A stretch of DNA of 28,289 nucleotides from a virus. The position numbers and the translations under genes were made by a program. Positions 1 to 24,646 of this stretch are shown here, piece by piece (positions within the stretch are counted from its first letter, which is position 1; every line of letters begins with the position of its first letter). The stretch spans positions 1 through 28,289 of IMG/VR virus record IMGVR_UViG_3300031594_000010. The stretch is one strand, 5' to 3'. A model generated the notes under the pieces. That model was not told the origin of the DNA. It ran no database searches and saw nothing but the letters and a program-made list of their open reading frames with translations.

Positions 1-3000
1 TGGCTGTTGTTGAATTCGCAGTAAATGTAGCACCTGCGAAGGCTGAAGTACTTAATCCGAGCTGACCCCAGTTAGTAGTGCCAACCTCAGAGATTTTATA
101 AGTAGCCCCGTTTACGGGGTTAGCACCCTGTCCAACAGTAATTTCACCACTATTGTAGCTAAGATCATATGTATTCGTTAAGCTCTGCAAAGGGCCATAG
201 GTTGTACCTATAGTACCCAAATTCACTGGCGTAGAGCCGCCTGGTTGGCCCGGTGTGCTGTTTGTGTTTGTCGCTGGCCCGTTATACCAGACAAAGCCCA
301 CCCTTATCCCAAGATAAACTTGTAGTTGGTATAATTTTTCTTCAGCCTTTCTAACCCCATTCGACGCTATAACGGCGCCGGCAGGAGTTCTGATATCTTC
401 ATCTACGTCGTGATCATAGGCAGGTTGGGAGACCCCATTAACATCCACGTAGGCATCGTAATCGTCCCAGAAGTATGGTGTTCCGGCATTCGCCCAGTCA
501 TCTATAATTTGGGTATGCCTAGTAAGTTCGGCCTCCCAGAGAGCATAAGCGGCCACCGCTTCTGACGGAGTAATTTTTTCGTCATCAGCGAGATTATCTA
601 ACTGTCCGACAATGTTACCTATCGGCAGAGTGGTAATGGTATTATTACCAGTCTGAGACTCATAAGTACTTAAAGGGCTCAGGCTTATAGTTCCTGCTAC
701 TTCCAGACCGAAGCCATCCCATTTAACGAAGTTTTGTGCGCCTCCTAGATTGAGTCGGACGCCTACAGGAAACTGGTTCCCAGCATCGTCGAGGCCTATC
801 GCCGTTTGTGCGGCTGTAGTGGGGACATTCTGTAAAAAGAATCCGCTATCCGTATCTGCATAATAATTCTTTCCTGCAGTATGAAATATACCACTTAGGT
901 TAGAGGAAGAAGTTCCAAGTTTAATTTTATTGCCGACAACTAACTCGTTGGTCAGTACTGTATTTGCAGCAAGCCTGTTGCCGCTTAGTGTACCTGTTAC
1001 AATTACACTTCCGTCAAAAGTTTCTACGACTAAAGAGCTGAAGCTAGAAGCTTGAACAGACGCAGCACTAGTTACTGCACTTGTTCCAGCATAAATACGT
1101 GTACCTGCTATCTCGTTGGAATTATCCGTAACAGTTATTCTATCATTCTGGCGTAGAGTATTATCAGGTGAGGCGGCTATTACTGCACCTGCGACGGCCG
1201 CGGCGGCGGCGTTATCTAATGTCCCGGCCCATTTTGCTGCGCTTGTCGCATCAATCTGAGCTGTACTAGACGTTTCGAAAGTAAAGATACTACCCCCACG
1301 AACTGCACTTGCATCTAGTGATTTAGTAAGGTTGAATTCAAATACAGCAGTTGGTATAGCAGGAGGATTGGTGTCAAGTGCATGTCCTATACTGTTATCA
1401 AAAACGTCAATCTGAAAAGAGACTTGATTAACAGCCGGGTTGGTAAGAAAGCTACCACTACCACTTGCTGCACTAATAGTAATTTTACCATTACTCTGGT
1501 CAAGTACGGGCAACACACTAGCTTGACCACCTACAGCTGCCGGCAATATACTATCAAAACCAGGACCTAGACTAAACCCATCAGTGGCGGTGGATTGCGG
1601 CTTATATACGAGTACATCAGTTCCGTCAAAAACTCTAATAAAAGAAGAAAAACTAGCTACGTCTGTTATAGCCCCGGTAGCGTCTGCGGCAAAGTTATGG
1701 GTTCCATTTGTAGGTGTATAGGTCTGCCCATCTGCACCAATACTTCCATTTATAACAGTTCTTACACCTGCAAAACTAATAGAAGCTGTGTTGGAAGTAA
1801 AAATTTGTTGATTCGACAGCCCTGAATTTATAGTATCTGTGAAACTGACATCTAGAGTTTGGGGTAAATTAGCTAATGTACCAGAAGCCTGACCCCTACC
1901 TCCGCTATTTTGAAGTGCCTCCGTTGGAGGTGAATATATGTAAGTGTCTGACGAGCCAGTTTGTCCACTTCCTGGATATGACAGGGCAGTCCCACTTGCA
2001 TCCTTCAAAACCCAGGTATACTCTACATTGGCTTCGTCGCTTATATTTACAGGCAGTGCAGTTACTGTCGTCTGACCGGTAGCAGGGTTTGTAACCCTGC
2101 TTGTAGCTGTATTATATTGAAATAACGTTGTACCTGCACTAACACTAACTAATCTATTTGTATTCATTCCAAGAGCTAGACCTGGCACACCCGCTAAATT
2201 ACTTCGAGGCTCATATACAGATGCTACATTAATGAAGCGACTACCTGCTCTATTTGAAGGGGTTTTTACTTGATATCTTATCCAATAGTATCTTAGAGTA
2301 GGGTCAGTACTTTCATTTTCTGTATAAGAGTCCCGAAATTCTTCTACTCTACAGCTACCTATACGCTTAGCACGATCTGCCTCAACTATCGTAGTATTAT
2401 TTGCGTTAAACGGAGCAGGAGCCCCCAAGAAATTAATACTATTACCGCGCCATATTTCAATCTCATGTGTAGTCTCTGAAAAAGCGTCTGTGTTATTCCA
2501 AACCAATATTATTTCGCCTAATTGAACCTGGGAAGCTGCCAGGTTGGTAGGAGGATTTGGCCGACCAAGTGGTGGAGTGTTAGGATCGGGCGCTATACCA
2601 TAGCCTCCGCCTTCTGCTACTATGACATACGCACTATCATCATGCTCAGATGCGGTAATATCTACTAATCCATCGTTTTTAAAATTAATATTAGTTATGC
2701 GAAAGCTTTTGTTTGTATAACCAAAGCGCGGGTATGTAATGTCTATTATATTACCTGAAAGAAGTAGTAAACCTCTTGGAGCCATAGTAAACTGTATCTC
2801 TAAACCGTACCTAGATTCATCTAAAAATTGCTTTATATTGAACCTAGCATTAAAATAATTAGTAACTCCAGGTAAGGAATACTGAGCTTTCTTTTGTATG
2901 CCTTTATCTTCTTTTAAATAATCAGAGTTAAAGAAAGAAACAGTTCTAGCTTGGAAGCCATTAGCAGGGTCTAATATAGAAGCAGTGACATAATTTTTGC

Positions 3001-6000
3001 TATTTTTTAAACCTTTATCTGCTAGTTTAATAGTACCTATTATGTCATCTTCACTGATTCGTTCCGGGTCGACTAAAGTCGGTTTTTTACTTTTAATGTC
3101 AAGCTCATACTTACCTACAGAATACCGAAGCATTCCATTGAACTGTTTCAACATCTTATTGATATTGGAAAATATAGGACTTTGAGTATCAACGATTTGA
3201 TTCATCTGGTGTCGAGTAACGTTTCTTTGCTCACTGCTGTCCCAGCCTAAATACTTCCAATATTTTACATCATCAGAATCATATATGCCATATCCAGAAG
3301 CAGAAAAGTTTGATGCTCTAGAATCCCATTTTTTAACTATTGGATTACCATTTGCTGAGTATACATTATCTTTTGATATACCATAGACTTTACTGCCCCC
3401 CACTTGTCTAAGGTACACAGTAGATGTATATTTGTTCCCGTCTTGTGGGTTGGGCGTTGTTGTAATCACACCTGCTGAAGACGCTCTATAGAAACATTTA
3501 TCATACCAATAGAACTCACCGGCTTGAAAATATTTCCAGTTATTCCATTTTGTAGCAACTTTCCCCACGCAGTCTGTAAAAGTTACTTGTTTCCAGTTAA
3601 AAGGTCCGGTTGTGCCAAAGGCGCTGCCTAGCTCGGCGTCTGTTTCTACCCTACTTACAGTACCACGAAATTGGTTAATAGTAGTTGAGCCGGAGGAAGT
3701 AGACATCTCGTAAGTTTCGCCAACATTAATATTAGCACCAGGAGTAATTAGAACAGTAACCTCCGATCGAGTATCGCATTCTCTTGCAGCAGAAAGAAAA
3801 GAGGATACGTCGATATCCTTATCAATGTCTAGCCCTTTACCATATCTCTCATTTGTAAGGTAGTCAAGCAGTTGCATAGCAGGATTAATAGTAACACGTT
3901 TATCTCCGATTGAGCCGATAGTAAACTTGTCTCCAAGTGCAGGCATAAAATTATAAGCCCAAGGCTCATCAACCATTGCTACCCCGTAAGTATTATCATA
4001 GCTTATAATAGTTCTTTCTTGTTTAAAAACACCTCCTCCGCTTATAGCGTGCTGAAGAGTTACTTTTTTACCGACATAGAAGTTGGCAACGGCTTGGTTG
4101 GCGGCGCCATTTAACGCTATCGCATTTTTAATATAAAGACCTGTAATATTATTCGCAGTTCCGTAACTAGCAGAATAAGGTAAAGGAATATTATCTATGG
4201 TTTGCGTGCTTGTGTTAAAAGAAAACCCTGCGTAAGAGGGTGCAGCAGCAGAAATATCAGCAGCATTATACATACCTATTATTACACCAGGCTGATTTAG
4301 AGCGTACCGCTCGGGGGTGTTGCCTGTGCCGCTCACAACCAGTTTCGTACCAATACCATTTGAACTTTGTACAAACTGAGAGGCTACCATACCTGTGATA
4401 ACAAGAGCTTCGGCTACAATTGTTGATGTTTCTGCTGCATCCCATGTTTGCATATGCCACCTAGCATTATTACTTTTTTTCATATAAAAATTTGTAATAG
4501 GTGTGGTACCGTCCAGAAGGATGGATGGCGAGAGACGAGGAGATAGTCTAAATCTATAGTCAATATCGCCATTGATATCAAAAGTAGACCACTTATCTAC
4601 AATAGTAAAAGTACTTCCTATTGCTCCATTACCTGAAGTTTTATGTAAAGTAACAGAATCATTTAAGTTAAATTGAGTGTGGATAGCATTTGTCAGATTG
4701 GACTCAGTAGATTGCTTATAGCTGCCATCATAGTTATAGCATTCGGGGTTCCGTCCTCGCACTACGTAACTCATTGAAGGCAGGCTTGTTTCACCTTCCT
4801 TAATTACATATTTTCCTGCTACATATGCAGTATCGAGTACCTGATGACTAGGTCCCCAGTATAGTTCTTTACCGGCATAATAGATAGGGTCTTGAGTTGT
4901 AAAGTTTGAATCGCTAGGATTGTTAGCAATCTCTACTAAAGTATTATCTGCTTTTTGATTGGCTTTCCCCGCGTGGAAGGTAATATGTACGTTCATAGGG
5001 TCAATAAAACTATGAGTACGTTCATGTAATATTCCAGTAGCATTCCCAGTTTCTGAGTCACTAGCTCCCGTGGGAGTAGTTTGAAATACAGTCTTTGTAA
5101 AACTATCAGAATTAAAGGGCGCGTTTGGCCCGAGAGTGGTTTCAATAGTAACCCCGTTATAGTCAAACTGTGTAACGTTACCTGTTGCACTATCGTAGGA
5201 ATTTAAAGTATCTCCTCGATCTTGCCTGCCAAAACACTGTAGCTCTACAGCGTCAGATTCAACAGAACGCAAATCAAAATCCAGTTTATTTACACAAATT
5301 GTAGTAGTATCGTCAATCAAAATATCAAATATAGATGCGATTGGGCCTTCACAGAGTGCGTCTGCTTTATAAACTATAGATGCATCGCTTTTATCAGTGT
5401 CTACAAATATAGGAAAAGAGTCAATTTTACGAACACCGTATACTACAGGTAGCATTTTTGCTTGAGGATTAAAACGTAGGTCTACTTCGCGAGTTTCATC
5501 TTCTGTATATTCTTGAAGATCGTCACCTCTAGCGGTTCTGATTTTATCAACTTTTACATTGTAAGTAGCCAGAACATTGATTGCGCGGTTTGCGTGTAAA
5601 AATCCTAAATCGCTAGCATATGCAGGCCTAAGAACAGAGGCTATGTCTACTGTATTATCTGGTTGAAGAGCTCGGTGCTCCTCATCATCTGTTAAACGCC
5701 CTTGTACTCGTAAAAAATCACCCCAATGACTAGAAAGTGTCCATTTTATTTGTGAAGAGTTAGGTTTTTCTACAATCGAGCAACCGCTTGTTATACCTTT
5801 AAAGTATACGTAAGGTGTCCCTATTATTACATTTTCGGAGTTAAGGTGTGCTCTATATATAAAAACTTCTCGGTTTATATAATTAGTATAAGTTCCTCCA
5901 GTTTTATCGGCTATAAGTATGTTTAATTCTTCTGCAGCTAAAGCTATCGTATAGTTTTTCGCTGTAGCTACCGCGGTCATTCCATTTATATCAGTAAAAG

Positions 6001-6553
6001 TAATACTTTTACCTTCGTCCGTAAAACTTTCAATACGAATATACTTTCCGGCATTGTCATGGGTCTGTAGGTCTAATGCTAGGTTGCCTGTGCTTCCTGT
6101 TTTGTTAAGGAATATTTTATCGCCTTCTTGAAAACCTAGTTCAGATAAGTTGGTAGTAGTTACCATCTTTCCATTTACGCTTGTAAAAGTAGCAGCAACA
6201 TCAACTATAGTTCCTAAACTGGAAGCATCTAAAGTCATAGAAAGATTAGAAGCTCTTGCTTGTATATTTTCGTTAACCGTACCTAAGTTGACGAGTTTAT
6301 TTGCTCTATAAATATTACCATCTGTACCTGTAGGTGTAAGAGGGTTTCCATCTAAATCTACAGCGCCATCATCATATACAATATCGAAGGGAGCATCTGT
6401 TATAAAAGTGTAATCACTATCTACACCTTTAATAAGGGCACCAACTATATCAGGGTTTTGAGGTTTCTCAAACCTAATTAAATGAACCACTCTAAAAGGG
6501 TCATAGTTCATAAGTGAAGTTACTAAATCCGGGTGAATTGCGCGTGTTGCCAT
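1..6553 (-). CDS. J-like tail-tip / central fibre protein, partial (runs off left edge)
   Basis: The frame opens at the ATG at 6553 and stays in phase to base 1, giving at least 2184 residues with no stop in the stretches I translated. The start overlaps the preceding stop by one base (TAATG). Residues 1 to about 150 look like the hub domain of a lambda L-type tail-tip protein. The middle has J-family signatures: NPAMQLLDYLTNERYGKG near residue 888 and AARECDTRSEVTV near 920. A fibronectin-III-like segment begins near residue 1325 (PPTNLAAS, then EIILVWNN). The last part is a Gly/Ser/Thr/Ala-rich beta region, including FDGSVIVTGTLSGNRLAANT, ending in NWGQLGLSTSAFAGATFTAN, a phrase common in phage fibre proteins. 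By family knowledge it caps the tail and makes the central fibre that meets the host receptor. The C-terminus lies outside the window. Confidence 0.88.
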   Translation of the reverse strand, partial: MATRAIHPDLVTSLMNYDPFRVVHLIRFEKPQNPDIVGALIKGVDSDYTFITDAPFDIVYDDGAVDLDGNPLTPTGTDGNIYRANKLVNLGTVNENIQARASNLSMTLDASSLGTIVDVAATFTSVNGKMVTTTNLSELGFQEGDKIFLNKTGSTGNLALDLQTHDNAGKYIRIESFTDEGKSITFTDINGMTAVATAKNYTIALAAEELNILIADKTGGTYTNYINREVFIYRAHLNSENVIIGTPYVYFKGITSGCSIVEKPNSSQIKWTLSSHWGDFLRVQGRLTDDEEHRALQPDNTVDIASVLRPAYASDLGFLHANRAINVLATYNVKVDKIRTARGDDLQEYTEDETREVDLRFNPQAKMLPVVYGVRKIDSFPIFVDTDKSDASIVYKADALCEGPIASIFDILIDDTTTICVNKLDFDLRSVESDAVELQCFGRQDRGDTLNSYDSATGNVTQFDYNGVTIETTLGPNAPFNSDSFTKTVFQTTPTGASDSETGNATGILHERTHSFIDPMNVHITFHAGKANQKADNTLVEIANNPSDSNFTTQDPIYYAGKELYWGPSHQVLDTAYVAGKYVIKEGETSLPSMSYVVRGRNPECYNYDGSYKQSTESNLTNAIHTQFNLNDSVTLHKTSGNGAIGSTFTIVDKWSTFDINGDIDYRFRLSPRLSPSILLDGTTPITNFYMKKSNNARWHMQTWDAAETSTIVAEALVITGMVASQFVQSSNGIGTKLVVSGTGNTPERYALNQPGVIIGMYNAADISAAAPSYAGFSFNTSTQTIDNIPLPYSASYGTANNITGLYIKNAIALNGAANQAVANFYVGKKVTLQHAISGGGVFKQERTIISYDNTYGVAMVDEPWAYNFMPALGDKFTIGSIGDKRVTINPAMQLLDYLTNERYGKGLDIDKDIDVSSFLSAARECDTRSEVTVLITPGANINVGETYEMSTSSGSTTINQFRGTVSRVETDAELGSAFGTTGPFNWKQVTFTDCVGKVATKWNNWKYFQAGEFYWYDKCFYRASSAGVITTTPNPQDGNKYTSTVYLRQVGGSKVYGISKDNVYSANGNPIVKKWDSRASNFSASGYGIYDSDDVKYWKYLGWDSSEQRNVTRHQMNQIVDTQSPIFSNINKMLKQFNGMLRYSVGKYELDIKSKKPTLVDPERISEDDIIGTIKLADKGLKNSKNYVTASILDPANGFQARTVSFFNSDYLKEDKGIQKKAQYSLPGVTNYFNARFNIKQFLDESRYGLEIQFTMAPRGLLLLSGNIIDITYPRFGYTNKSFRITNINFKNDGLVDITASEHDDSAYVIVAEGGGYGIAPDPNTPPLGRPNPPTNLAASQVQLGEIILVWNNTDAFSETTHEIEIWRGNSINFLGAPAPFNANNTTIVEADRAKRIGSCRVEEFRDSYTENESTDPTLRYYWIRYQVKTPSNRAGSRFINVASVYEPRSNLAGVPGLALGMNTNRLVSVSAGTTLFQYNTATSRVTNPATGQTTVTALPVNISDEANVEYTWVLKDASGTALSYPGSGQTGSSDTYIYSPPTEALQNSGGRGQASGTLANLPQTLDVSFTDTINSGLSNQQIFTSNTASISFAGVRTVINGSIGADGQTYTPTNGTHNFAADATGAITDVASFSSFIRVFDGTDVLVYKPQSTATDGFSLGPGFDSILPAAVGGQASVLPVLDQSNGKITISAASGSGSFLTNPAVNQVSFQIDVFDNSIGHALDTNPPAIPTAVFEFNLTKSLDASAVRGGSIFTFETSSTAQIDATSAAKWAGTLDNAAAAAVAGAVIAASPDNTLRQNDRITVTDNSNEIAGTRIYAGTSAVTSAASVQASSFSSLVVETFDGSVIVTGTLSGNRLAANTVLTNELVVGNKIKLGTSSSNLSGIFHTAGKNYYADTDSGFFLQNVPTTAAQTAIGLDDAGNQFPVGVRLNLGGAQNFVKWDGFGLEVAGTISLSPLSTYESQTGNNTITTLPIGNIVGQLDNLADDEKITPSEAVAAYALWEAELTRHTQIIDDWANAGTPYFWDDYDAYVDVNGVSQPAYDHDVDEDIRTPAGAVIASNGVRKAEEKLYQLQVYLGIRVGFVWYNGPATNTNSTPGQPGGSTPVNLGTIGTTYGPLQSLTNTYDLSYNSGEITVGQGANPVNGATYKISEVGTTNWGQLGLSTSAFAGATFTANSTTA

Positions 6554-7323
6554 TATCGTAGAGCCTCTTCTAGCTTCAGTGAAAAACTGTATAAATTATT
6601 TGTATTTAAGCTATACTCTACTAGATCGCTAGCAAATATAACTCTGAATTTGGGGTCGTGAAAATTAATAACAGAGCTGACTGTTAAAGTTCTGGTAAGT
6701 GGTGGATTAAAATGTAATAATTGCTGAGTTGCTATAGGGTTAGCTGCACCTGAAAGGTGAGTACCATCAACTTCTACTCGAGTTATTTGATATACTTTTG
6801 TGTGTCGAACATCCCCTCCGTCTGTTATGGTAAAAATATCTCCCGGCTTTGCCGTGCCATTCGCACTTGAGCTATAACCTGGTCGTGATACTATTATAGT
6901 TGTTTGACCTGCTATCCCGTTGGTTGCCGTGCTCGCGGCGGTAAACTGATTTGAAGCTGCATAGGCTGCAAAAGTAGGGTCACGAGGTACTCTATATTGA
7001 GGCAATGAAACAAAAAAGGGTTGTAAACTTCCTTTTTGTTGCATTATAAAAGAATTTACAGGCTCAAACTCCTCGCGAGTCATAGGATTGTAAGAAATAT
7101 CTATATTCCATTTATGCCCCGACAAAGACCTACTTATCAGCCTTCCAGAATTAGTACGAGTATTTAGAAGTGGCTGCTCAGAAGCTAGCTTCACAGAAGC
7201 ATATCCAGGTCCATAAACTCCAGTGTTGACAACGGTACCACTGGAGTTGAGGGAGCCTCCAGCCTCTACAAACGTATTATTGGGGTCTGGTAAAACATTC
7301 TGAAATATGTCAAAGTCTGCCAT
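6553..7323 (-). CDS. Distal tail / minor tail protein between tape measure and J
   Basis: This 256-residue protein lies between the tape measure gene and the J-like gene and overlaps each by a single base (TAATG at both ends), so the three are probably translationally coupled. The position matches lambda M or distal tail proteins, which join the tube to the tip. The sequence is soluble and beta-rich, with a phrase FEPVNSFIMQQKGSLQPFFV typical of minor tail proteins that contact the tube end, and a central Gly/Ser/Thr-rich stretch. No signal peptide or membrane segment is seen. Lambda-type phages usually have several small genes (M, L, K, I) here. This phage has only one, so it and the enlarged N-terminus of the J-like protein may share those roles. 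The name rests mainly on position. Confidence 0.72.
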   Translation of the reverse strand: MADFDIFQNVLPDPNNTFVEAGGSLNSSGTVVNTGVYGPGYASVKLASEQPLLNTRTNSGRLISRSLSGHKWNIDISYNPMTREEFEPVNSFIMQQKGSLQPFFVSLPQYRVPRDPTFAAYAASNQFTAASTATNGIAGQTTIIVSRPGYSSSANGTAKPGDIFTITDGGDVRHTKVYQITRVEVDGTHLSGAANPIATQQLLHFNPPLTRTLTVSSVINFHDPKFRVIFASDLVEYSLNTNNLYSFSLKLEEALR

Positions 7324-10300
7324 TAGTATGATTTATCCTGTACGCCTTCTAAGAACATTTGTCCATGTTCGTTTGCGGCCTCTCGTAACATTGCGATTAT
7401 ATTACCTCTCTGATTCATTAATAAGTCTTCTACACCTGATGCATCTACTGCACTAATTGAGAAGTTTACGTTCGTCATTCCACCTGTTTCTTTTCCAGAA
7501 GGTATAATATTTCCGGCAGTTTCTGGCATAAATACTTCTGGACCTTGCTCACCAACCAGGTAGCCTCCTGCAGCACGACCTTTATATCCAGAGAATGCTG
7601 AGGTGGGTTTAAAGTCGTCCATACCTGTACCGATTCCTGAATCTCCTCGTGCGTATGCCAGCTCTCCTCCAGCATTATTAGCATTCGCTAAGTCTACAGT
7701 ATTGCTTCGTGAGCCTACCTCTAATGTAGAAGGGGCGGTAGGTGTTGATCCTCCTGCACTTCCTCCTCCTTGATACGACGTGCCGGCAATTATAGCAAGT
7801 TGTGCCGCACCCACTGCAGCCATAGCTGCACCCGTAGCAATACCAAAAGGAAGACCGCCAGCATTTGCAATACTTTGTATAACTGCAGAAGCCGTTGATA
7901 GTATTGTTTGAGCCATTTGTGCTTTTTTGTTTATTTCAAAAGCTTTCTTCTTTTCTTTCTCTTTCTTCTTATCTAAAGCGGAAAGCTTAGCTAAACTTGC
8001 TGCAGATTTTCCATCACGTTTTTGTTCTGCAGCAATTTCTTGGTCAATACTTGTAATTTTCTGTTGACTATTTGCTGCTAACATGCTGCTTATAGCTCCT
8101 ATGGTTGCTGAAGAGGCTTCCAGGCCTGCAGCAAGTCTATCTCCTCCAGAAGCAGCGCTATCACCAATTATTTCAAATGCAGTGCTCCAGGCACCCGTTG
8201 CAGCAGCGGCTCCGCTTGTTACAGCATTAAGTAGTAAACCTTCAGGCCCCATCAAATCCATCATAGGCTGTAGTGCATTTATAGTACCTGCTACCTTGTC
8301 TCCTATACTGGACAATTCTTGGTCTGGGTCAAGTGCTCCTCCAGCTCCAAACAAACCGGATATACGCTCGCCTTGCGAGCCACTATTGGAAGTGCTGGCA
8401 TCTAGAGTTGCTCTGCTTTTAACAACTCCTTCAGTTTCTATATTGTCCTTAGCAACAACTCCTGTAGTTATTGCGGCTGCAGTCGCTCCATTTCGTGCTT
8501 GTTCCTGCAAGCCTGCTAGTTTTTCAAAAATCTTTAACTCTTCGGCACTTGCGCCTGTCCTTGCTGCTTTTGCTTTCTCCAAAGCCAGTTGTGCGCCTAG
8601 TAAATCCCACTGTAATTTGATAGTTTCTACCTTTGCTTTAGTTTCCTGTGTTATCATATCCAGGCGGGCTTGTTTATTTTCATTGAACGATTTCATTTCG
8701 TCCTGTGAAGAGGTATCGAACCTATTTGTTGCAGCTTTTCGCTTAAGAGCATTTTGTTGTAGTGCTATACTCGCAGCTAACATAGCTTTTCTAGAGTTGA
8801 GCTCTTTATTTACTAATGTATTTATAAGCATTTGCTGTTTAACGTCAGCAACTTTCACAGAGGCAGCTATTTGTGCAGTTCCAAGCCTTTCTGCTTCAAT
8901 AGCCTTAAGCTCTTGCTGTAATTGCAATAGTTTTTCTTGATCTAGAACGCTTATACCAGATAGGTCTATAAGATTAATTTCTTCTTGCACAGCATTTTTT
9001 CTAGAGTCTACTATCTGATTATGCATATCTAGAGCTCTTTGCATAATTAGAGGGTTATCTTTTGATATTGCATTTAATTTTTTAAACTCTATCTGCTGCT
9101 GTTTAATTAGTGCCTTAGCAGTGATTAGAGTATCGCGGCTTTTTTCAAGTTGTTTAACGCTGAGCATCAGTACCCCTGCGTCACCGAGTAGAGATTTTGG
9201 CAAGCCCCCTGGCAGTGTGTCAGGCAGAACTGATCTCATTGCGTCTATAGTGTCTTGAAAACCTATGGCATTATTTTTGAAGGCCTGAATAGCTTGGCCT
9301 CCTGCAGCAGCTGCATTATTAAATTCTATTGATAATAACTTGAGATTCTCAATAATAGGGTCATACGGTGTACTTTTTCTTGCTCCAAGTTTATTAACCG
9401 AAGCTTGAAAATCTGCCATAACAGTTTGAGCACCCATGATAGACTCTATGATAGATTTATTATTTCCCATGAAGCCGTCGAAAAATTCTTGAAAGCCAGT
9501 ATTAGTCTTAAATCTATAGCTATCCTCCTCTAGTAGCTTCAGTTCTTTTGTCAGTAGTGCTATCTGAGGTGTTAACTCTTTTTTAAGCTTTGGTGCCATT
9601 GCATTCATTGAAGCTAAAGCGTCTTGTATAAATATTTTAGCAGCAGCTTTGTTTAATTCCTCGATACCTGTGTTCAAGGAATCTACTTTCGATTCTGCTC
9701 CTGTCACGGCGCTATCAAAAGCTTTACCCCTGGCATCTAGTGTGGCAGTACCACGACCTGCACCCAAGGCTCCTGAATTTACTCCGCCCTGCCCCGACTT
9801 GGTTTCACTCTCTCTTTTTGCTCGGTTTGCTGCGTCTAAATCCTCTTGAGCTTTTATTCTATCCTCTCTACTTGCTTCTCTTACTGCCGCTGTATACTTT
9901 TTCCATCCGTCTATTAGTTGGTCAATTATGCCTACTTTAGCCTTTAAAGTAGCTACAAAAGCGTCTGCCTTCGAGTCTGTCTTTTTTAAAGTATCCTCTA
10001 ATTGGTCTGAAATAGATACAAAACTCTCAAATGAATCTGTAATGCCGGTAAGTGTTTTTTCAAGTTCACTATCTCCGAAAAGTTTCTTAAATACGGGTAT
10101 TAGTAAAGAAGCTACAAATAGTACTTGACCGATTACAGGTATGGCATTTAGTAGTGCTGTACCAAACAAAACTACAGCACCTCTAGCGGCTGTAGCCCCT
10201 ATTACAACTTTAGCCCACAGGCTTCCATTCACTCTTCCTACTGTTTTCATTTGAAGAGCTGTGCCTGTAAGAGCCACTCTAAACTTAGCTAAAACACCAT

Positions 10301-11657
10301 TTGCTGCTTCCATACGGTTCAGAGCCGCAGATGTTATTGTAGAAGACCTACTTCGACCTGCAGCTATAACACCTTTATTTGTTATTACTGATTTTGTTTT
10401 TTCGGCTTCTTGAAGTTTTTGTACTGCTACAATTTGTTTTCGAATTATGTCAAGATTGTCTTGTCTAGCTTTTTTAACCTCCCCTAATCCTGCCGCAGTT
10501 TGTTTAACTCTTATTGCTTCCGAAGCCTTTAAACTTTTTAATACTTTTGCCTGCTCGTTAATACTTAAAGTACCAGACTTAATTTTAGTAGTAAGATTCT
10601 GAATACCTTTAGGAATTATTGTCAATTCCTTACTAACTTTAGTCGCAGCGTCTGTATACGCCTTACTTACAACTTTAGATGCTTTTTTGGCAGTAGCTCC
10701 TGCTGCGGTAGCAGATCTCGAAAAAGACTCAGACATTTGACCAATAGCAGGTAGTATGGTTTTTAATATTGTGGAGCCAAATAAGAACAGTACACCCGTT
10801 AAAGCTGTGGGGTTAGCACCTAAAAAAGACACTAAAGGAGTTAGTACAGTATTGATAAGATTTAAACCAGTTTTAGAGAGGTTAGTAAAAGCTGCAGCAA
10901 GCTGGTCATACGCATTGGGGTCTAAAGTTTCTGCAATATCCCCGAATTTTTTCAAACCTTGTTCTGTAGTTGCATTTAGAAATGCTTGTCGTCGTTCAAA
11001 CTGAGTAAGCTGGTCACCTGTCTTACCTATAGTAACTGCATAAGCATCTACCGCATCATCAAGACGCACCATGATGCCCAATTCGTCCAGAATTTCTGGT
11101 TCTAATTTTGCAGTACCTTTTACCAGTCTTGTAAGTGCATCTTCCATATCTCTACCGAGAGCTTGAGAAGCGCCTTTAGCTACTTTAGTTAAATCTTCTA
11201 GTTGGGTTGAGGAAAAGCCTGAGCTAAAAGCCAAGGCTGTGGACGACATAGCAGCTTCCATCGAAATGGCTGCTCCTGTAATATCTCGAATATTTTCAGC
11301 AACATAGGTAAGGTTTGCACCTGCAGCATTACCTACTCTGATCAAGCCTTCTTCTAGTTGTTGAGTAGCGGCAGCACGTCTAAGAGCTCCGAAAGCTGCT
11401 GTTAGTGCGAATATATTAGCCGCTAGAACTGCATAAGCAGGAACAAGGCCGCCTGTAATACCTGTAGACATTTTAGAAAATGCTTTTGTACTATTAGAGG
11501 TTGCACCGGCCGCACCTTTAGCTACTTTATTATAGCGATCAGCAGAGTTACTAGCATTATTTAAGCCAGCAGCAGCTTTATCAGCATGTTTACCAACAGC
11601 CTGTAGACTGCCGTCTTCCAGAACCTTAAACTTAACTGTAACTGTATCTGTTGCCAC
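7323..11657 (-). CDS. Tail tape measure protein
   Basis: This 1444-residue protein is the largest complete one in the window and sits directly after the G/T chaperone pair, the standard place for a tape measure. It is rich in Ala, Lys, Gln and Ser with long predicted helices. Hydrophobic segments occur near residues 70-95, 285-310 and 490-525 (including AIPVIGQVLFVASLLIPVF), and a Gly/Ala-rich one near 1250-1290, as usual in proteins that enter the host membrane during DNA ejection. The C-terminus has a Gly-rich part and the phrase AAGGYLVGEQGPEVFMPE, recurrent at tape measure ends. At roughly 0.15 nm per residue, the known rule for this family, the tail would be a little over 200 nm long. 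The start lies two bases after the T stop codon. Long plus-strand frames inside it are shadows. Confidence 0.95.
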   Translation of the reverse strand: MATDTVTVKFKVLEDGSLQAVGKHADKAAAGLNNASNSADRYNKVAKGAAGATSNSTKAFSKMSTGITGGLVPAYAVLAANIFALTAAFGALRRAAATQQLEEGLIRVGNAAGANLTYVAENIRDITGAAISMEAAMSSTALAFSSGFSSTQLEDLTKVAKGASQALGRDMEDALTRLVKGTAKLEPEILDELGIMVRLDDAVDAYAVTIGKTGDQLTQFERRQAFLNATTEQGLKKFGDIAETLDPNAYDQLAAAFTNLSKTGLNLINTVLTPLVSFLGANPTALTGVLFLFGSTILKTILPAIGQMSESFSRSATAAGATAKKASKVVSKAYTDAATKVSKELTIIPKGIQNLTTKIKSGTLSINEQAKVLKSLKASEAIRVKQTAAGLGEVKKARQDNLDIIRKQIVAVQKLQEAEKTKSVITNKGVIAAGRSRSSTITSAALNRMEAANGVLAKFRVALTGTALQMKTVGRVNGSLWAKVVIGATAARGAVVLFGTALLNAIPVIGQVLFVASLLIPVFKKLFGDSELEKTLTGITDSFESFVSISDQLEDTLKKTDSKADAFVATLKAKVGIIDQLIDGWKKYTAAVREASREDRIKAQEDLDAANRAKRESETKSGQGGVNSGALGAGRGTATLDARGKAFDSAVTGAESKVDSLNTGIEELNKAAAKIFIQDALASMNAMAPKLKKELTPQIALLTKELKLLEEDSYRFKTNTGFQEFFDGFMGNNKSIIESIMGAQTVMADFQASVNKLGARKSTPYDPIIENLKLLSIEFNNAAAAGGQAIQAFKNNAIGFQDTIDAMRSVLPDTLPGGLPKSLLGDAGVLMLSVKQLEKSRDTLITAKALIKQQQIEFKKLNAISKDNPLIMQRALDMHNQIVDSRKNAVQEEINLIDLSGISVLDQEKLLQLQQELKAIEAERLGTAQIAASVKVADVKQQMLINTLVNKELNSRKAMLAASIALQQNALKRKAATNRFDTSSQDEMKSFNENKQARLDMITQETKAKVETIKLQWDLLGAQLALEKAKAARTGASAEELKIFEKLAGLQEQARNGATAAAITTGVVAKDNIETEGVVKSRATLDASTSNSGSQGERISGLFGAGGALDPDQELSSIGDKVAGTINALQPMMDLMGPEGLLLNAVTSGAAAATGAWSTAFEIIGDSAASGGDRLAAGLEASSATIGAISSMLAANSQQKITSIDQEIAAEQKRDGKSAASLAKLSALDKKKEKEKKKAFEINKKAQMAQTILSTASAVIQSIANAGGLPFGIATGAAMAAVGAAQLAIIAGTSYQGGGSAGGSTPTAPSTLEVGSRSNTVDLANANNAGGELAYARGDSGIGTGMDDFKPTSAFSGYKGRAAGGYLVGEQGPEVFMPETAGNIIPSGKETGGMTNVNFSISAVDASGVEDLLMNQRGNIIAMLREAANEHGQMFLEGVQDKSY

Positions 11658-11659
11658 TA

Positions 11660-12019
11660 TTACTTTCTCTTTAGCTTATCCCTTTCTCGTTTTAATTGTT
11701 CTTGAGATTGGTTAATAGCCCTTGATTCTAAATAAGTTAGAATCTCTAAAAATAGTTCTGTATCCTCTATTCCATGCATTTCTATATAAAAAGGTAGCGT
11801 TGTAAAGTCTTTTCCCATGTATCCGATATCAGGATAAACTCTGTCACCTAGTGCACTAAAAGTGTTTAGTGCTAAAATGGCTAAGGCGGGAAAATCCTCT
11901 ATATCAGGAGGTATTTCTTCTTCAACCGGTTCCTTTTCCATCTGTTCACACATCTTAAAATAACGCTCTCGCGTCATCTTAGAATCACTATTTTTGAAGA
12001 ACCTTTCCAGGCGCTCCAA
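11660..12019 (-). CDS. Tail assembly chaperone, T-like part (frameshift product or TTG start)
   Basis: This 119-codon frame overlaps the end of the G-like gene by 32 bases and ends two bases before the tape measure gene, the arrangement of lambda G and T. In lambda-type phages the T part is made only as a G-T fusion through ribosomal slippage, and the fusion recruits tube protein to the tape measure. Here T lies in the +1 (equivalently -2) frame relative to G. The only initiation codon near the overlap is TTG at 12019, preceded five bases upstream by a perfect AAGGAGG at 12031-12025, so independent initiation is also possible. The product is charged, with an acidic middle (PVEEEIPPDIEDFPALAILA) and a Lys/Arg-rich C-terminus. 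If slippage occurs at the G stop, about 110 residues of this frame would be fused to G, giving about 260 residues. Confidence 0.75.
   Translation of the reverse strand: MERLERFFKNSDSKMTRERYFKMCEQMEKEPVEEEIPPDIEDFPALAILALNTFSALGDRVYPDIGYMGKDFTTLPFYIEMHGIEDTELFLEILTYLESRAINQSQEQLKRERDKLKRK
11988..11996 (-). other. Candidate ribosomal slip site CAAAAATAG at the end of the G-like gene
   Basis: In the G frame the message ends CAA AAA TAG. A lysine tRNA on the last AAA can move back two bases and pair with another perfect AAA. The next codon is then AAT in the T frame, so slippage bypasses the stop and reads on. A +1 step (AAA to AAT) reaches the same frame with poorer pairing. A GGAAAGG run lies just upstream, and a perfect AAGGAGG about 28 bases upstream. 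Phage Mu is the known precedent for a -2 shift in these genes, while lambda uses -1. Confidence 0.5.
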
Positions 12020-12440
12020 CAGCTCCTCCTTTTGGCTTGCTACGAAAGTTATCTAGATCAAAGACTACCTCATTGAGCCAACCGTCGAATTCAGAAGAAG
12101 AACTTACTAAAACCTCGGCATTATCTAGTGAATATTCTAATTCTTTCGCAGGGTCTTGTCCATCAATATCTATGAGAATCAAAGTCTCTAAGTGGGTAAG
12201 TGTTAAACCTTTCCAGTTTTTAACTACTCCTTTAGTAAATTCTACTACAAATTTATCTTCGTCTAATGTATCTACTGCTTGACGCGTCTTGCGGTCAAAC
12301 TTTGTAGTAGTACACTTCTTACGAAGTCCTGTCAGTTCTTTACGAGACAAGTTTGCTATCTCGACTTCGAATCCTGGTAGTCCAGGAAAGTCAACCCAAA
12401 CTGCTTTGGTATCGACCATTAGTGTTTTTAAATCCATCAT
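11988..12440 (-). CDS. Tail assembly chaperone, G-like part
   Basis: This 150-residue soluble protein sits immediately before the overlapping T-like frame and the tape measure, the position of lambda gpG. In that family G and the G-T fusion coat the tape measure and bring tube subunits to it, and are absent from the finished virion. The start is one of two adjacent ATG codons (12440 or 12437), preceded by AAGGA. The N-terminal part reads AVWVDFPGLPGFEVEIANLS, a strand-rich opening often seen in such chaperones that act on tube proteins. The last residues (KPKGGAVGAPGKVLQK) form a flexible Lys/Gly linker encoded where the two frames overlap, as expected if part of the product is extended into T. 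The gene follows the lectin-containing tube gene by 11 bases. Confidence 0.8.
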   Translation of the reverse strand: MMDLKTLMVDTKAVWVDFPGLPGFEVEIANLSRKELTGLRKKCTTTKFDRKTRQAVDTLDEDKFVVEFTKGVVKNWKGLTLTHLETLILIDIDGQDPAKELEYSLDNAEVLVSSSSEFDGWLNEVVFDLDNFRSKPKGGAVGAPGKVLQK

Positions 12441-12451
12441 TATTCCTTATT

Positions 12452-13960
12452 TTAGTTAAGTGTGATTTTACTACCGAGATCGGTAGGGTTGTCGTTCATT
12501 TTCCAGTCATATGCTTGAGTGTATACGTCGCCTACAGAGTTCCTATTTGTAAAGCTACAGTTTGCGAGATTGAATTTAAAACCTCTAAAACTCGTAGAAC
12601 TCAAACCATTTCCTGCCGTTATTACAAGTGGTACATTTGTGTCCCAGGTCTGTACGTCAGTATTTGAAGTATCTGTAACATACTGTCCTATTGAACCGGA
12701 AAGAATTCGTTTTTCCAGAGTAAATTGAGAAGGATACATAGAATTGCTAGCATTAGTTACATCTAATGCTGCATTGACAGTTTCATAAGGTATCCATTTT
12801 ATGTCATTTTGTAACTCAATGGAACACTTATAAAGACAAGAGCTAAGAGCTGCACCGTTGATAGTAATACCAAGACTTTTTGTCATCTGGTAGGTTCTAG
12901 TACCTCGGGTGGGTAAAGGAAATAATATTTCCCTACCTCTAGTTAGCTTTGCTGCTTGTCCTGAGAGTGACAACTTAAGATTCTGTAATTTCTCAATTAT
13001 GAATGTCCCATTAGTTATAACACACGTTTCAAGCTTATAAACATCGTTTGGTAATTTTACATATAAATCAAAGGTATTTAAAGTATAAGTATCTGTTTTG
13101 TAGTCTACTAAAAGATCTAAGACAGTAGCTAAACTATCTTGTGTGATCATATGTACTGTCATATCAAAATTAGCAGGGTTAGCTTTTTTAATATTAGATG
13201 CTTCGTGCATCTTATGCTGCTCGTGTAGCGTTTTCTGCTGATATGTCTTATCTGTAAAAGTTTGCGTAAAGCTTAAATCAGGGCCTACGTCTAGTAGTAT
13301 TGGTTGATTTTTATAAGCACTTTCCTGATTATTATAAATTCGTAAACCTGAAAGAATAGCTCCTGACCATGCAACATTCCTGTCTATTCCTGTTTGGTTT
13401 CCTGGGCAGTATTCGCTAGTATGAGGGCTGTAACCCCAGCCTCCAGAACCGCTACCCGCCCAGTTATCTCCGGTTAAAGATGAACCGTCTAAAGTGACTC
13501 CTTGTACTTTAAGTTTATTGTCTATCCATAGACTTGCGGTGCCCGCATCGGGGTCTGCTTCCCATGCAATTGTGTGCGCTTTTCCATCAAATTCTTCTAT
13601 TTCTGAAATTGGCTTATTTAAAACTACTAGATCATTTGTGGTTGCCTGATAGCTGCCACTTCCGTGCCCAGTACGGTATTGAAGATACTTAATCCCCGTG
13701 ATAGTAGTAATACCTATCCACATTCCTTGACTTGTGCCACCCTTGGTAAAAAGGGTTTCTTCTGTATTCGTAAACGAAGAGGGAAGAATCAGCTCTCCTG
13801 CAAATACTACTTTTTGTGAGCGTGGAGTGGCGCTCATAGGAGCATTATCGCCTAAATTAACAAAAGGTGTTATAGTTCCAGAAAGCGTCAGCCCGTGTTC
13901 TATATCAAAGGCTGGACAAAGGTATACTTGCGCCTCTTTGTTAAAATTAAAATTAGCCAT
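12452..13960 (-). CDS. Second tail tube protein with inserted LamG/lectin-like domain
   Basis: This 502-residue protein is a diverged copy of the tail tube protein encoded next to it. Both begin with a KEAQVYL / RETKVYI strand. The region at 226-270 here (GPDLSFTQTFTDK then FDMTVHMI) matches 33-80 of the neighbour (LDGFSFSQGTNTS then AEWSFSTYARPF). Later segments match as well (VYKLETCVI / VYKIANCAV, and FNLANCSF / LNMSQCHL near the C-termini). Between the first two, residues about 45-215 form a LamG or concanavalin-like unit: VVFAGELILPSSF, MWIGITTITGIKYLQYR, FDGKAHTIAWEADPDAGTAS, LWIDNK, and a closing ILSGLRIYNNQ. I infer a tube or tube-end subunit displaying a sugar-binding jelly roll on the outside of the tail. 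It has its own promoter and a terminator hairpin in its leader, and starts after GGAG. Confidence 0.78.
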   Translation of the reverse strand: MANFNFNKEAQVYLCPAFDIEHGLTLSGTITPFVNLGDNAPMSATPRSQKVVFAGELILPSSFTNTEETLFTKGGTSQGMWIGITTITGIKYLQYRTGHGSGSYQATTNDLVVLNKPISEIEEFDGKAHTIAWEADPDAGTASLWIDNKLKVQGVTLDGSSLTGDNWAGSGSGGWGYSPHTSEYCPGNQTGIDRNVAWSGAILSGLRIYNNQESAYKNQPILLDVGPDLSFTQTFTDKTYQQKTLHEQHKMHEASNIKKANPANFDMTVHMITQDSLATVLDLLVDYKTDTYTLNTFDLYVKLPNDVYKLETCVITNGTFIIEKLQNLKLSLSGQAAKLTRGREILFPLPTRGTRTYQMTKSLGITINGAALSSCLYKCSIELQNDIKWIPYETVNAALDVTNASNSMYPSQFTLEKRILSGSIGQYVTDTSNTDVQTWDTNVPLVITAGNGLSSTSFRGFKFNLANCSFTNRNSVGDVYTQAYDWKMNDNPTDLGSKITLN

Positions 13961-13972
13961 TATTCTCCGGGC

Positions 13973-14000
13973 AATAAAAAGGGCTCAAAAAGAGCCCTTT
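13973..14000 (-). terminator. Rho-independent terminator in the leader of the lectin tube gene
   Basis: Read leftward, AAAGGGCTC, a five-T loop and GAGCCCTTT form a perfect 9-bp stem (13992-14000 with 13978-13986), followed by TTATT. It lies between a sigma70 promoter (14047-14019) and the ribosome site of the gene starting at 13960. It can end read-through from the first tube gene and could also attenuate the local promoter. On the plus strand the same stem is followed by AGCTTTTTT, so some two-way activity is possible. Confidence 0.75.
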
Positions 14001-14018
14001 AGCTTTTTTCTATCCCAT

Positions 14019-14047
14019 AGTATAGTCCAAAAGACCTCCTATGTCAA
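14019..14047 (-). promoter_or_regulatory. Sigma70 promoter upstream of the lectin tube gene
   Basis: TTGACA (14047-14042), a 17-base spacer and TATACT (14024-14019), with an A-rich tract just upstream. It starts about 10 bases after the stop of the first tail tube gene. Transcription should start near 14011-14012, giving a leader of about 50 bases that includes the terminator hairpin. Confidence 0.82.
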
Positions 14048-14056
14048 GAACTTTTT

Positions 14057-15175
14057 TTAAGCACCTATATACTTGACCGTAAGTTCGTCCGCGGCTGTAA
14101 TATTTGTTCCTAGAGCGGAGAAAGATACCTCTAAAGCAATAATATCATCAATGGAGTGCGTGGGCACTTCTAAGTGACATTGAGACATATTAAGTTCTAT
14201 ACGAGGAGTACCTGAACTACCTCCGACTTTAAAACCAAGAGTAAAAGAGTTAGTAATTGTACTAGTTCCTTCAATAATATTTTCAAACAAGTCCATGCTT
14301 CCTAAAGCAGTGTTATCTAAATAACAACTAAAACTTCCGCCAACGGTGCGCGTACCTGTAACTGCTTCTAAAGGTTGGTTAACTACTCCTATAGTTTCTG
14401 GAGTGACGAATGAAATATTATTACTAATAGTAACATTACCACCTGTTAGCGTTAAACCATAATTAGTAGATGTAGGCGATGTGGATACTGCAGTAAGCTG
14501 CGTTAAGCGGTTACGAATAAAATTAGTTGTACTAGTAATTCCTTCATACCTAGTTCTAACAGGTGCTGAAGCTTCTTCACTAATAATTGTACCCATTCCA
14601 GACCAGTTGATTGTAGTAATACCATCAATATCAAAGTCCATAGATGCTTCATTTACAGCACAATTTGCAATTTTATAAACAGTTGTATCAGTCTTAAAGT
14701 ATATATTCGCTTTTGCTAGCTCAGTTAGGTTTGAATTGGCAAAGGTAATATCCATATCAGTACCATCTGCAGTAATACCTGTTGACCAAGCAGCATTAGT
14801 ACTAGCAGCAGGGTTGGTATACGTAGCATTGGTAGCAAGCATAGCCCACAAAGGCTCTTCTACACAGTGTTGAAAAAGAGCATCGTCTACTCTACCACCA
14901 GTTTCACCTGTTCCAGCTGATTTAAAAGGTCTTGCATAAGTAGAAAAACTCCACTCTGCCGGTGCGTAAGAGTCTGTGAACATTTTACGTCCTCGACGAC
15001 TAGAATTGGCTGCACCAGACATTTCGTTAAGTACTACTTCGCTTGTGTTTGTACCTTGTGAAAATGAAAAACCGTCTAGAACGGGTATCTCCCATATTGC
15101 GTCTGCATCCTCTGTTCCATTTGCTGCTAAGTATGCGATATAAACTTTCGTTTCGCGACTAAAAAATAAAGCCAT
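14057..15175 (-). CDS. Major tail tube protein
   Basis: This 372-residue protein has no membrane segment or signal peptide and is rich in Thr, Ser, Asn and Gly, typical of tube subunits of long non-contractile tails. It opens with a strand (RETKVYIAYLA), then LDGFSFSQGTNTSEVVLNE and a loop with the basic patch SSRRGRKM, which could line or contact the lumen. It lies between the tail terminator gene and its lectin-bearing paralogue, upstream of the G/T chaperones and tape measure, as expected for the tube protein. It is preceded by a strong AGGAG. A 63-base gap separates it from the upstream gene and holds only a weak GAGC-AAAA-GCTC hairpin. Which of the two tube proteins forms the bulk of the tail is inferred: this one, because it lacks the insertion. 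Confidence 0.82.
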   Translation of the reverse strand: MALFFSRETKVYIAYLAANGTEDADAIWEIPVLDGFSFSQGTNTSEVVLNEMSGAANSSRRGRKMFTDSYAPAEWSFSTYARPFKSAGTGETGGRVDDALFQHCVEEPLWAMLATNATYTNPAASTNAAWSTGITADGTDMDITFANSNLTELAKANIYFKTDTTVYKIANCAVNEASMDFDIDGITTINWSGMGTIISEEASAPVRTRYEGITSTTNFIRNRLTQLTAVSTSPTSTNYGLTLTGGNVTISNNISFVTPETIGVVNQPLEAVTGTRTVGGSFSCYLDNTALGSMDLFENIIEGTSTITNSFTLGFKVGGSSGTPRIELNMSQCHLEVPTHSIDDIIALEVSFSALGTNITAADELTVKYIGA

Positions 15176-15238: not shown

Positions 15239-15691
15239 CTAGTATCGAACCTCTATTAGCATCTCTCCGACACCTAAAGGCTCAAGTACACCTTCATCAG
15301 TATCAATACTGATGATTGTGATTTGTTGTGTACTTTGAACCACATTTTTGCGGTCTATGTACGTTAAGTTTGAGTTCTCTTCTAAAAGAGTTTCTACATC
15401 TTCCAGGAGCTCGTCTAAGGCTTTTACAGAATCTTCGTCCTGTACGTAGCATCGTATTGTGACTGATAGAAACCTATCTTTATAACCTCCACCTTGATAT
15501 TCGCGTGTTTCAGAACCAGCGTTTAGGTGGACTGCGGGAAATTCTTCTACTTCATCCCAAAATTTTAATCGAGGAGAGACATTCTCATTTAAGTTAGTTA
15601 AGTAGTCTCCTTGCCCATTTATATCTTTTAACTTTTCTACAATAGCGGTTAATATACCTAGGCGTCTTGTAGTGTATGCCCTTTCTGCCAT
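15239..15691 (-). CDS. Tail terminator / tail completion protein
   Basis: This 150-residue protein begins at an ATG overlapping the stop of the neck gene by one base (TAATG). Its pattern fits gpU-like tail terminators: an N-terminal helix (LGILTAIVEKLKDI), then WDEVEEFPAVHLNAGSETRE, strands (FLSVTIRCYV), a helix rich in Asp/Glu/Leu (ALDELLEDVETLLEE), and a last strand pair ending in GVGEMLIEVRY. Proteins of this family form the hexamer that stops tube growth and joins the tail to the head. Its place just before the tail tube gene agrees. I see no catalytic motif. The family name is from pattern and position only. Confidence 0.72.
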   Translation of the reverse strand: MAERAYTTRRLGILTAIVEKLKDINGQGDYLTNLNENVSPRLKFWDEVEEFPAVHLNAGSETREYQGGGYKDRFLSVTIRCYVQDEDSVKALDELLEDVETLLEENSNLTYIDRKNVVQSTQQITIISIDTDEGVLEPLGVGEMLIEVRY

Positions 15692-17637: not shown

Positions 17638-19008
17638 TTAAGATGAGTGGTACGCGATACGTACCGAAGGCAGATTACCAACAGCACCGGCAAACAACTC
17701 AGTAAAACCGAGAGACTGTGAAGCAACAATAGCAGTACGCTGATTGGCTGTTTCATAGTCAGTTTCGATTGAAACACCTTTCAGACGAGGCACAACATAG
17801 TTGTTAACGTTAACTGCAACAGCAGCTGTTTTGTTAACACCACGCTCGAAAGCATCACTGACAACTACCGGAGAACCATAAACAGCGCCTACAGAACCCA
17901 CAACCTTAGCAGCCAAATCACTACCAACTTCACTGATATCTTGAAAGCCAGGATCATTGATCAAGTTGTAGTACTCAACTGTGTTAACGATGTAAGCAAC
18001 ATCAGCAGGGTTAATACCATACTTGCCCATCTCACCACGTGCTTTCATAAGTTTCTCAGCCGTCAATGCAATACTAGTACTGATTACCATACCAGTAGCA
18101 GGTACACTAACTGAGTTAGCGGCCATCATACTTGTTCCGTCAGTTCCAGAGCCAACTAGGCCAGGGATAGCGGTAGTACCTTTAGTGAAGGCGCTATCAA
18201 TTGCACGAGCGTGAGCACGGGCCAAAGCAGACAAGATCATTGGAAGGATTGTAACTACTACCTGCTCATCGGTATCATTAGCAATGAAAGTACCAGAGAT
18301 CAAACGCTTAGCAAGAGCAGTAACTTCACGAAGCTGAAACTCATTAGCTACACTTCCCGCTGCTTCTGTAAGGATACCATCACCAATTCCGCCAGCGCCG
18401 AAAGTAGCAAGGTTAGTGTCATCCATCAAAGGAAGAACTGTAGCGCCAGAATTGACTTGCAATTCACGGAACAGGCCAGCAACTTTCTGTTGCAGACGTA
18501 CTTCTTCTTCAAAAGTATTAGAAACAATAGTATCTAAAGTTCCTGCATTATCCTCGAACTGAACACCAAGTTTTTGCAGAAGGTCTTGACCGAACTGAGT
18601 TCCGTTCATTCCTTTCTTAGTAATTTTACCAAGAACAGAAGCCATAAGGAATTCCTTACCAAACTTAGTAAGATCTTGCTCACGTCCTGAGAAGGACTTC
18701 TTGCTGTTTTGCATAGCAGTAATTTCAGTAGACTTCTCTTCGAGGTCTGCTTTGTGCTCTGCTAAGATTTTAGCGATGTCAGCGTCTTTTGCGCTAATTT
18801 TTGCTTCCATGTCTGACATGAGAGCTTCTACGCCTGACTGAATACCAGTCTTAACGCGAATGTTTTGTGCTTCAAGAACAGAAGCCTCTTTTTCAGCTTC
18901 GGCTTTCTCAGCTGCTTTTTGCTCGGCTTGCTTCATTGCGATTTTTGCAGCTGTATCTTCAGCTACCTTCTTTGCAAAAGCTTCCAAGTCGATGTTTTGG
19001 TTATCCAT
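17638..19008 (-). CDS. Nested internal-start product: delta domain plus major capsid protein
   Basis: Inside the protease/capsid frame, codon 208 is an ATG at 19008 preceded by AGGAG at 19019-19015 with a six-base spacing, as good as any ribosome site in this window. Initiation here would give 456 residues, MDNQNIDLEAFAKKVAEDTA onward, made of the scaffold-like coiled coil and the capsid domain without the protease. That matches the usual HK97 capsid precursor layout. It would also explain how hundreds of shell subunits can be made without an equal number of proteases. The segment before it (residues 185-207, Asn/Thr/Pro-rich) reads as a linker. The site is seen directly; its use is inferred. 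Nested in-frame starts are known for lambda C/Nu3. Confidence 0.68.
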   Translation of the reverse strand: MDNQNIDLEAFAKKVAEDTAAKIAMKQAEQKAAEKAEAEKEASVLEAQNIRVKTGIQSGVEALMSDMEAKISAKDADIAKILAEHKADLEEKSTEITAMQNSKKSFSGREQDLTKFGKEFLMASVLGKITKKGMNGTQFGQDLLQKLGVQFEDNAGTLDTIVSNTFEEEVRLQQKVAGLFRELQVNSGATVLPLMDDTNLATFGAGGIGDGILTEAAGSVANEFQLREVTALAKRLISGTFIANDTDEQVVVTILPMILSALARAHARAIDSAFTKGTTAIPGLVGSGTDGTSMMAANSVSVPATGMVISTSIALTAEKLMKARGEMGKYGINPADVAYIVNTVEYYNLINDPGFQDISEVGSDLAAKVVGSVGAVYGSPVVVSDAFERGVNKTAAVAVNVNNYVVPRLKGVSIETDYETANQRTAIVASQSLGFTELFAGAVGNLPSVRIAYHSS

Positions 19009-24575: not shown

Positions 24576-24646
24576 CCAACATACTATGTGGGCTCTTCCG
24601 GCAGAATTACGTCTACGTATGTGGTAGCCCCAACATACTGTGTAGG
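24576..24646 (-). repeat. Short tandem duplication across the chaperone-like stop codon
   Basis: CCAACATACTATGTGGGC at 24576-24593 and CCAACATACTGTGTAGG at 24630-24646 are near copies 54 bases (18 codons) apart. In the gene's direction the unit begins CAGTATGTTGG (Gln-Tyr-Val-Gly). In the second copy the CAG is TAG, the present stop codon. The ending may come from a duplication followed by a C-to-T change. Confidence 0.5.

Follow-up and report, generated by a model that had tools for sequence, protein, structure and literature searches.

Bacteriophage T5 offers the closest described counterpart of the proteins analyzed here. In the T5 tail, p140 forms a single trimeric ring between the last ring of the tail tube and the distal tail protein; it arose by duplication of the gene for the tail tube protein pb6, to which it retains 9% identity (PMC10038345). 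The p140 ring is reported to be free of decoration and enclosed by the p132 collar, which bears the fibers, and p140 together with p132 has been reported as a landmark of the large T5-like phages only (PMC10038345). Elsewhere, siphophage tails are decorated by Ig and FN3 domains (PMC8718954), and sugar-binding modules are found on the tails of the 936 lactococcal phages, where domains from a shared stock are plugged into structural proteins, namely the neck passage protein, an extension of the major tail protein and the evolved Dit, and two binding modules have been shown to bind host cells (PMC6669499). Paralogous tube proteins and sugar-binding tail decorations are, then, known; what is new in the locus described below is an insert on a p140-type ring, and we found no report in the open-access literature of such a ring with an inserted lectin-fold domain. 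The LamG-bearing phages DLP3 and vB_VneS_J26 were considered as precedents and rejected, the respective proteins being listed as members of the LamG superfamily or as carrying a LamG domain, with no link to the tube.

The window, that is, the whole stretch of DNA that was analyzed, comprises 28,289 nt, positions 1 to 28,289 of the IMG/VR virus record IMGVR_UViG_3300031594_000010, from a marine phage. The record is probably a fragment because the hub gene continues past one of its ends. The order of the tail genes, from tail completion through the tail terminator, the tail tube protein (TTP), the baseplate tube protein (BTP), two overlapping chaperone ORFs, the tape measure and the distal tail protein to the hub, is that of the T5 tail region (Table 1); the tail completion gene matches PF25747 below the cut-off. 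The overlap of the chaperone ORFs fits a programmed frameshift like that of lambda G/GT. The hub is of the J type and at least 2184 aa long, with the best phrog_31 match reported at residues 1114-1370, after a long N-terminal part, whereas the tip hub of T5 consists of the separate pb3 and pb4 proteins. In the head region, a 663-aa ORF (17638-19629, minus strand) has matches to head maturation protease as well as to major head protein families, so that a single polypeptide seems to combine the protease and the capsid protein. Upstream of the terminase, a 602-aa gene without a family match (25094-26902, minus strand) adjoins a tail fiber assembly gene (24584-25081) and may encode a side fiber. 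No Rfam family was detected within the window.

Table 1. Tail genes and elements of the tube protein region in the window
Feature	Coordinates	Strand	Evidence
Tail terminator protein	15239..15691	-	phrog_3907 E 8.8e-34, PF23818 E 9.5e-33
Tail tube protein (TTP), T5 pb6-type, 372 aa	14057..15175	-	phrog_3575 E 9.1e-60; PDB 7qg9_F E 1.6e-44
Conserved intergenic element, about 100 nt	13961..14056	-	promoter, terminator hairpin, then BTP start
p140-type baseplate tube protein (BTP) with inserted jelly roll, 502 aa	12452..13960	-	PF23779, phrog_3889, AF2/Foldseek
First tube strand of BTP, residues 1-14 (MANFNFNKEAQVYL)	13919..13960	-	common to empty-site relatives (MANFNFNKEAEVYL)
Inserted concanavalin-type jelly roll, BTP residues 15-221	13298..13918	-	empty-site relatives; fold match
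Remaining BTP tube core, residues 222-502 plus stop	12452..13297	-	PF23779; 77-80% identity to empty-site L012-L016
Tail assembly chaperone pair	11660..12440 (ORFs 11988-12440, 11660-12019)	-	phrog_313 E 5e-15, phrog_3914 E 1e-15
Tape measure protein	7323..11657	-	phrog_3779 E 1.4e-86
Distal tail protein (pb9-like)	6553..7323	-	phrog_1302 E 6.6e-20, PF21425 E 1.7e-8
Hub / central fiber protein, J type, truncated by window end	2..6553	-	phrog_31 E 6.8e-37

The ORFs of both tube proteins are intact. The 372-aa protein matches T5 pb6 across the whole tube domain (residues 2-365) and has the same duplicated tube fold (PDB 5ngj, 9iny): its AlphaFold2 (AF2) model, with a pLDDT of 78, retrieves the T5 tail tube (9iny_A) as the top Foldseek match with a TM score of 0.80. 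Unlike pb6, it has no C-terminal Ig-like domain, a feature that is also missing in some T5-like TTPs (PMC5717097). The TTPs of several relatives carry inserts of their own, near residue 125 in L004, L019, L034, L035 and L036 and, in a second loop near residue 232, in L005, L006 and L015, where the insert is a short module (YKITEVGDTNWTDIGA...). The L032 BTP has a stretch resembling this short module nested within its lectin-like insert.

The 502-aa protein is a member of the T5 p140 baseplate tube family and not a second shaft protein. It matches PF23779 with an E-value of 8.7e-12 (45.2 bits against a curated cut-off of 27) and phrog_3889 with an E-value of 5.4e-10, the matches to p140-family profiles being confined to residues 222-492. 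The top Foldseek match of its AF2 model (pLDDT 71, pTM 0.75) is T5 p140 (7qg9_G, E 6.9e-13), T5 pb6 is matched at 2e-11, and structural comparison with both yields Z scores of about 22 over 275-290 residues (22.0 over 275 residues for 9ioz_A); the tail tip middle protein (TTMP) of phage DT57C is matched as well. Because the fold match spans residues 4 to 501, the first strand, upstream of the profile matches, also belongs to the tube fold. Its gene immediately follows that of the tail tube protein and precedes that of the tape measure. Thus, the window BTP shares with T5 p140 and DT57C TTMP (PDB 7qg9, 8hqz) the profile, the duplicated tube fold and the place in the gene order, and, like T5 p140, is a paralog of the tail tube protein encoded next to it. 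It differs in that T5 p140 is about 298 aa long, whereas the window protein has a 207-aa jelly roll in place of the first hairpin turn.

A sequence-only reading of this region had proposed that the two proteins are paralogs on the strength of short motif matches. These alone prove nothing because direct BLASTP between the two proteins is not significant (E 0.088). The paralogy itself is real, and has already been published for T5: profile-profile comparison with hhalign of 56 BTPs with an empty insertion site and 26 TTPs aligned 252 columns with a probability of 97% and an E-value of 8.6e-11, and the predicted structures have the tube fold in common. Most of the proposed motif pairs, namely the first strand, LSFSQ/FSFSQ and VYKLETC/VYKIANC, were recovered in the hhalign alignment; the extreme C-termini, which had also been paired, lie outside it, given that the alignment ends at residue 272 of the L012 BTP.

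The boundaries of the insert are defined by relatives in which the site is empty. Relatives L012 to L016 have tube cores 77-80% identical to that of the window BTP and 7 aa where the latter has 207 aa: L013 reads MANFNFNKEAEVYL-YDGSTYH-RLDVGPDLSFSQTF, and the window reads MANFNFNKEAQVYL-[207 aa]-LLDVGPDLSFTQTF. As judged from these alignments, the insert takes the place of the turn of the first (beta1-beta2) hairpin. The jelly roll at the first tube strands that the sequence-only reading had noticed is present in the predicted structure, but the empty-site comparison places it at residues 15-221 rather than 45-215. Residues 21-219 of the model, which include loops and stretches with pLDDT below 50, come closest to the lectin domains of sialidases (Z 12.2 for NanB), with CBM40 and laminin LG both at Z 10.6 and pentraxins at about 10, each match covering 140-167 residues. 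At the sequence level, Pfam scans gave no match for the insert segment at E-values up to 10 and weak unrelated matches only for the individual members of the insert alignment; neither the window insert nor its 7 aligned relatives qualify as Laminin_G_3 (PF13385), and profiles of both insert types described below retrieved no PDB sequence. The concanavalin-like part of the earlier label is thus supported by the fold, whereas assignment to the LamG family is not, there being no Pfam or PDB sequence match. The resemblance to sialic-acid-binding CBM40, as to the other lectin, laminin G and pentraxin domains, is a similarity of fold without significant sequence match. A second copy of the module was not found elsewhere in the window, in which the hub gene is incomplete.

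To place the insert in an evolutionary context, we compiled 77 distinct BTP relatives through two scans of viral sequences and one of genomes, the last contributing only two MAG contigs. The lengths of the first-hairpin turn are bimodal: 61 of the 77 proteins have a short turn, the remaining 16 have a domain of 200-320 aa at exactly that turn, and no intermediate sizes were observed. Nine of the 16 inserts are of the window type and seven are of a second type. Among the latter, five (L076, L083, L084, L087 and L092) score above the Laminin_G_3 cut-off (up to E 3e-17), L035 falls just below it (E 4e-5), and L032 was placed in this type by 33% identity to L035. We detected no relation between the two types with hhalign, the alignments being shallow. 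The entire 502-aa protein, insert included, recurs at 100, 98 and 89% identity in three contigs and at 50-53% in others.

The phyletic pattern of the insert does not follow that of the tube core. On the core tree, the distribution of the insert requires 5 gains or losses, at least two of which are forced by well-supported branches. The inserts of L009 and L005 are 91% identical, compared to 76.5% for the cores, with dS of 0.39 and 1.05, respectively (the last codons of the L005 insert are approximate in this comparison). In both the TTP (93% identity) and the BTP core (85%), L009 is nearest to the empty-site L022, and the TTPs of L005 and L015 are 96% identical, although L015 encodes an empty BTP, one of the window's clade. 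These comparisons indicate that the insert travels separately from the BTP core. The insert evolves under purifying selection, with dN/dS ratios of 0.15-0.70; for the L004/L009 pair, in which dS is equal, the ratio for the insert is three times that for the core.

The window-type module is not limited to BTPs. We identified it in J-type hubs of up to 2985 aa (phrog_31; L123, L133, L139 and L142), in fiber-like proteins without a family (L135 and L151), and, directly after the GTA_TIM stretch, in the GTA megatrons of Rhodobacter and Dinoroseobacter phages. In the four hubs, the module occupies a nearly constant position near residue 790, just past the J-type core. The domain of the R26L megatron (XBW75391.1) is homologous to the window insert (34% identity, pairwise E 2e-17), although on a different carrier protein, and 27 copies of the module from different carriers all share the residues EFD, HT and, further along, WID. 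For the megatron of roseophage R4C, in which a domain was named carbohydrate-binding and likened to CBM11 (PMC10276861), the parallel with the window insert is one of name rather than established homology. A search for BTPs in 20 module-bearing records, mostly short fragments, recovered only L137, with an additional window-type BTP, and L138, in which the BTP (5095-6609, plus strand) has an unfilled short first hairpin and carries the window-type jelly roll fused at the C-terminus (residues 303-494). The reciprocal search for the window-type module in 20 records with an empty site or the other insert, run without a positive control, produced no match.

The TTP and BTP genes are separated by an intergenic element with a near-consensus sigma-70-like promoter (TTGACA-17-TATACT, 14047-14019, minus strand), the spacer of which contains an inverted repeat (GGTC..GAC), and an intrinsic-terminator hairpin (14000-13978, minus strand) located between the promoter and the BTP start. 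Nearly all of the relatives that were examined have this layout. An alignment of 19 relatives shows no variation in CTTGACAT or in most of the -10 region, and the terminator stem retains pairing despite different sequences. The element could set the ratio of TTP to BTP or produce a short RNA; as one of the best-conserved stretches adjoining the insert, it could also act as an anchor for recombination.

Taken together, these observations make it likely, in our assessment, that the insert decorates the tail-tip ring as a swappable, glycan-binding-like module, present in about three copies per virion, and serves as an accessory grip on the host envelope. By homology with T5 p140, a BTP trimer would form one ring between the last TTP ring of the shaft and the distal tail protein, and since p140 makes a single trimeric tip ring, about three inserts per virion would be expected. 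The beta1-beta2 hairpin has served as the plug-in site, accepting the 207-aa jelly roll in exchange for a 7-aa turn. The jelly roll would hang outside the ring because three globules of 22 kDa would hardly fit in a lumen that holds the tape measure, and because the beta1-beta2 loop of lambda gpV touches an external Ig domain (PMC8718954). From this position, it would assist the tail tip in holding on to the host envelope, either ahead of irreversible binding by the J-type hub or the fibers or while that binding takes place. Among phages, the module is exchanged: it is present or absent, is replaced by another type or sits on other tail-tip proteins. Glycan binding is predicted from the modeled fold and from the company that the module keeps on other carriers. 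The parallel with the 936 phages lies in the use of a common stock of modules; there, the folds, carriers and positions are different, the modules being C-terminal extensions or Dit insertions, as opposed to a domain set into the first hairpin of the protein that forms a baseplate tube ring (PMC6669499). If the window virion were T5-like in this region, there would be little room for a jelly roll on the ring because the p132 collar encloses it in T5. A more far-reaching version, in which the first hairpin is a dedicated plug-in site throughout a large group of marine phages with T5-like tails, and unrelated lectin-fold modules, gained, lost and exchanged time and again irrespective of the ring core, form a three-copy receptor crown that replaces the T5 collar and side fibers at the first contact with the host, we regard as possible but doubtful.

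The sequence-only reading had offered a mixed tube with lectin domains along the tail or, alternatively, sugar-binding units at one end of it, and had named a tail collar and gliding on the host surface as further possible roles. Mixed decorated tubes do exist, as in SPP1, where gp17.1 and gp17.1* occur at 3:1 (PMC8718954), and BTP and TTP have the tube fold in common. Nevertheless, a role of the 502-aa protein as a second shaft subunit is very unlikely because both the profile (PF23779) and the fold single out p140, a separate one-ring family in T5; furthermore, the terminator hairpin conserved between the two genes suggests unequal expression. Placement at one end of the tail agrees with the location of the p140-type ring at the tip of T5 (PMC10038345), and a surface-adhesion role is plausible. 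That the insert is a functionless chance acquisition or an assembly artefact, as the prevalence of relatives without it might suggest, appears least probable of all, given its recurrence in independent contigs, the maintenance of the open frame with dN/dS below 1 and the presence of a second, unrelated type of domain at the same site.

A more serious alternative is that the domain binds no sugar and functions in assembly or stability, packing on neighbors in the BTP ring or substituting for the p132 collar as an anchor of side fibers. Jelly rolls serve protein contacts too. In the tube protein of phage YSD1, an inserted beta-sandwich (domain2) packs onto the next subunit and stabilizes the ring rather than binding the host (PMC8718954), the fiber-bearing collar of T5 sits at the p140 ring (PMC10038345), and the tail fiber assembly gene in the window makes side fibers in need of an anchor possible. 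We nevertheless consider this explanation unlikely: most relatives, close ones included, do without the domain; the module recurs in J-type hubs, GTA megatrons and fiber-like proteins, with different partners; and the protein sequence of the insert changes about three times faster than that of the core (in one pair, at equal dS, 0.27 vs 0.09), unlike an interface with a conserved partner. An exchangeable decoration of the ring with an accessory role in adhesion thus remains our favored interpretation.

Many marine viral contigs thus encode a p140-type ring protein, in the window together with a J-type hub, and about one in five of the distinct BTPs found has a lectin-fold domain at this one loop. 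Should the domain indeed bind host glycans, matched pairs of phages with similar cores and with, without or with a different insert could be used to test the function of the module. In that case, the first hairpin would provide a natural site for insertions into a ring that is otherwise conserved, and adhesion modules would have a new location on the tails of siphophages.
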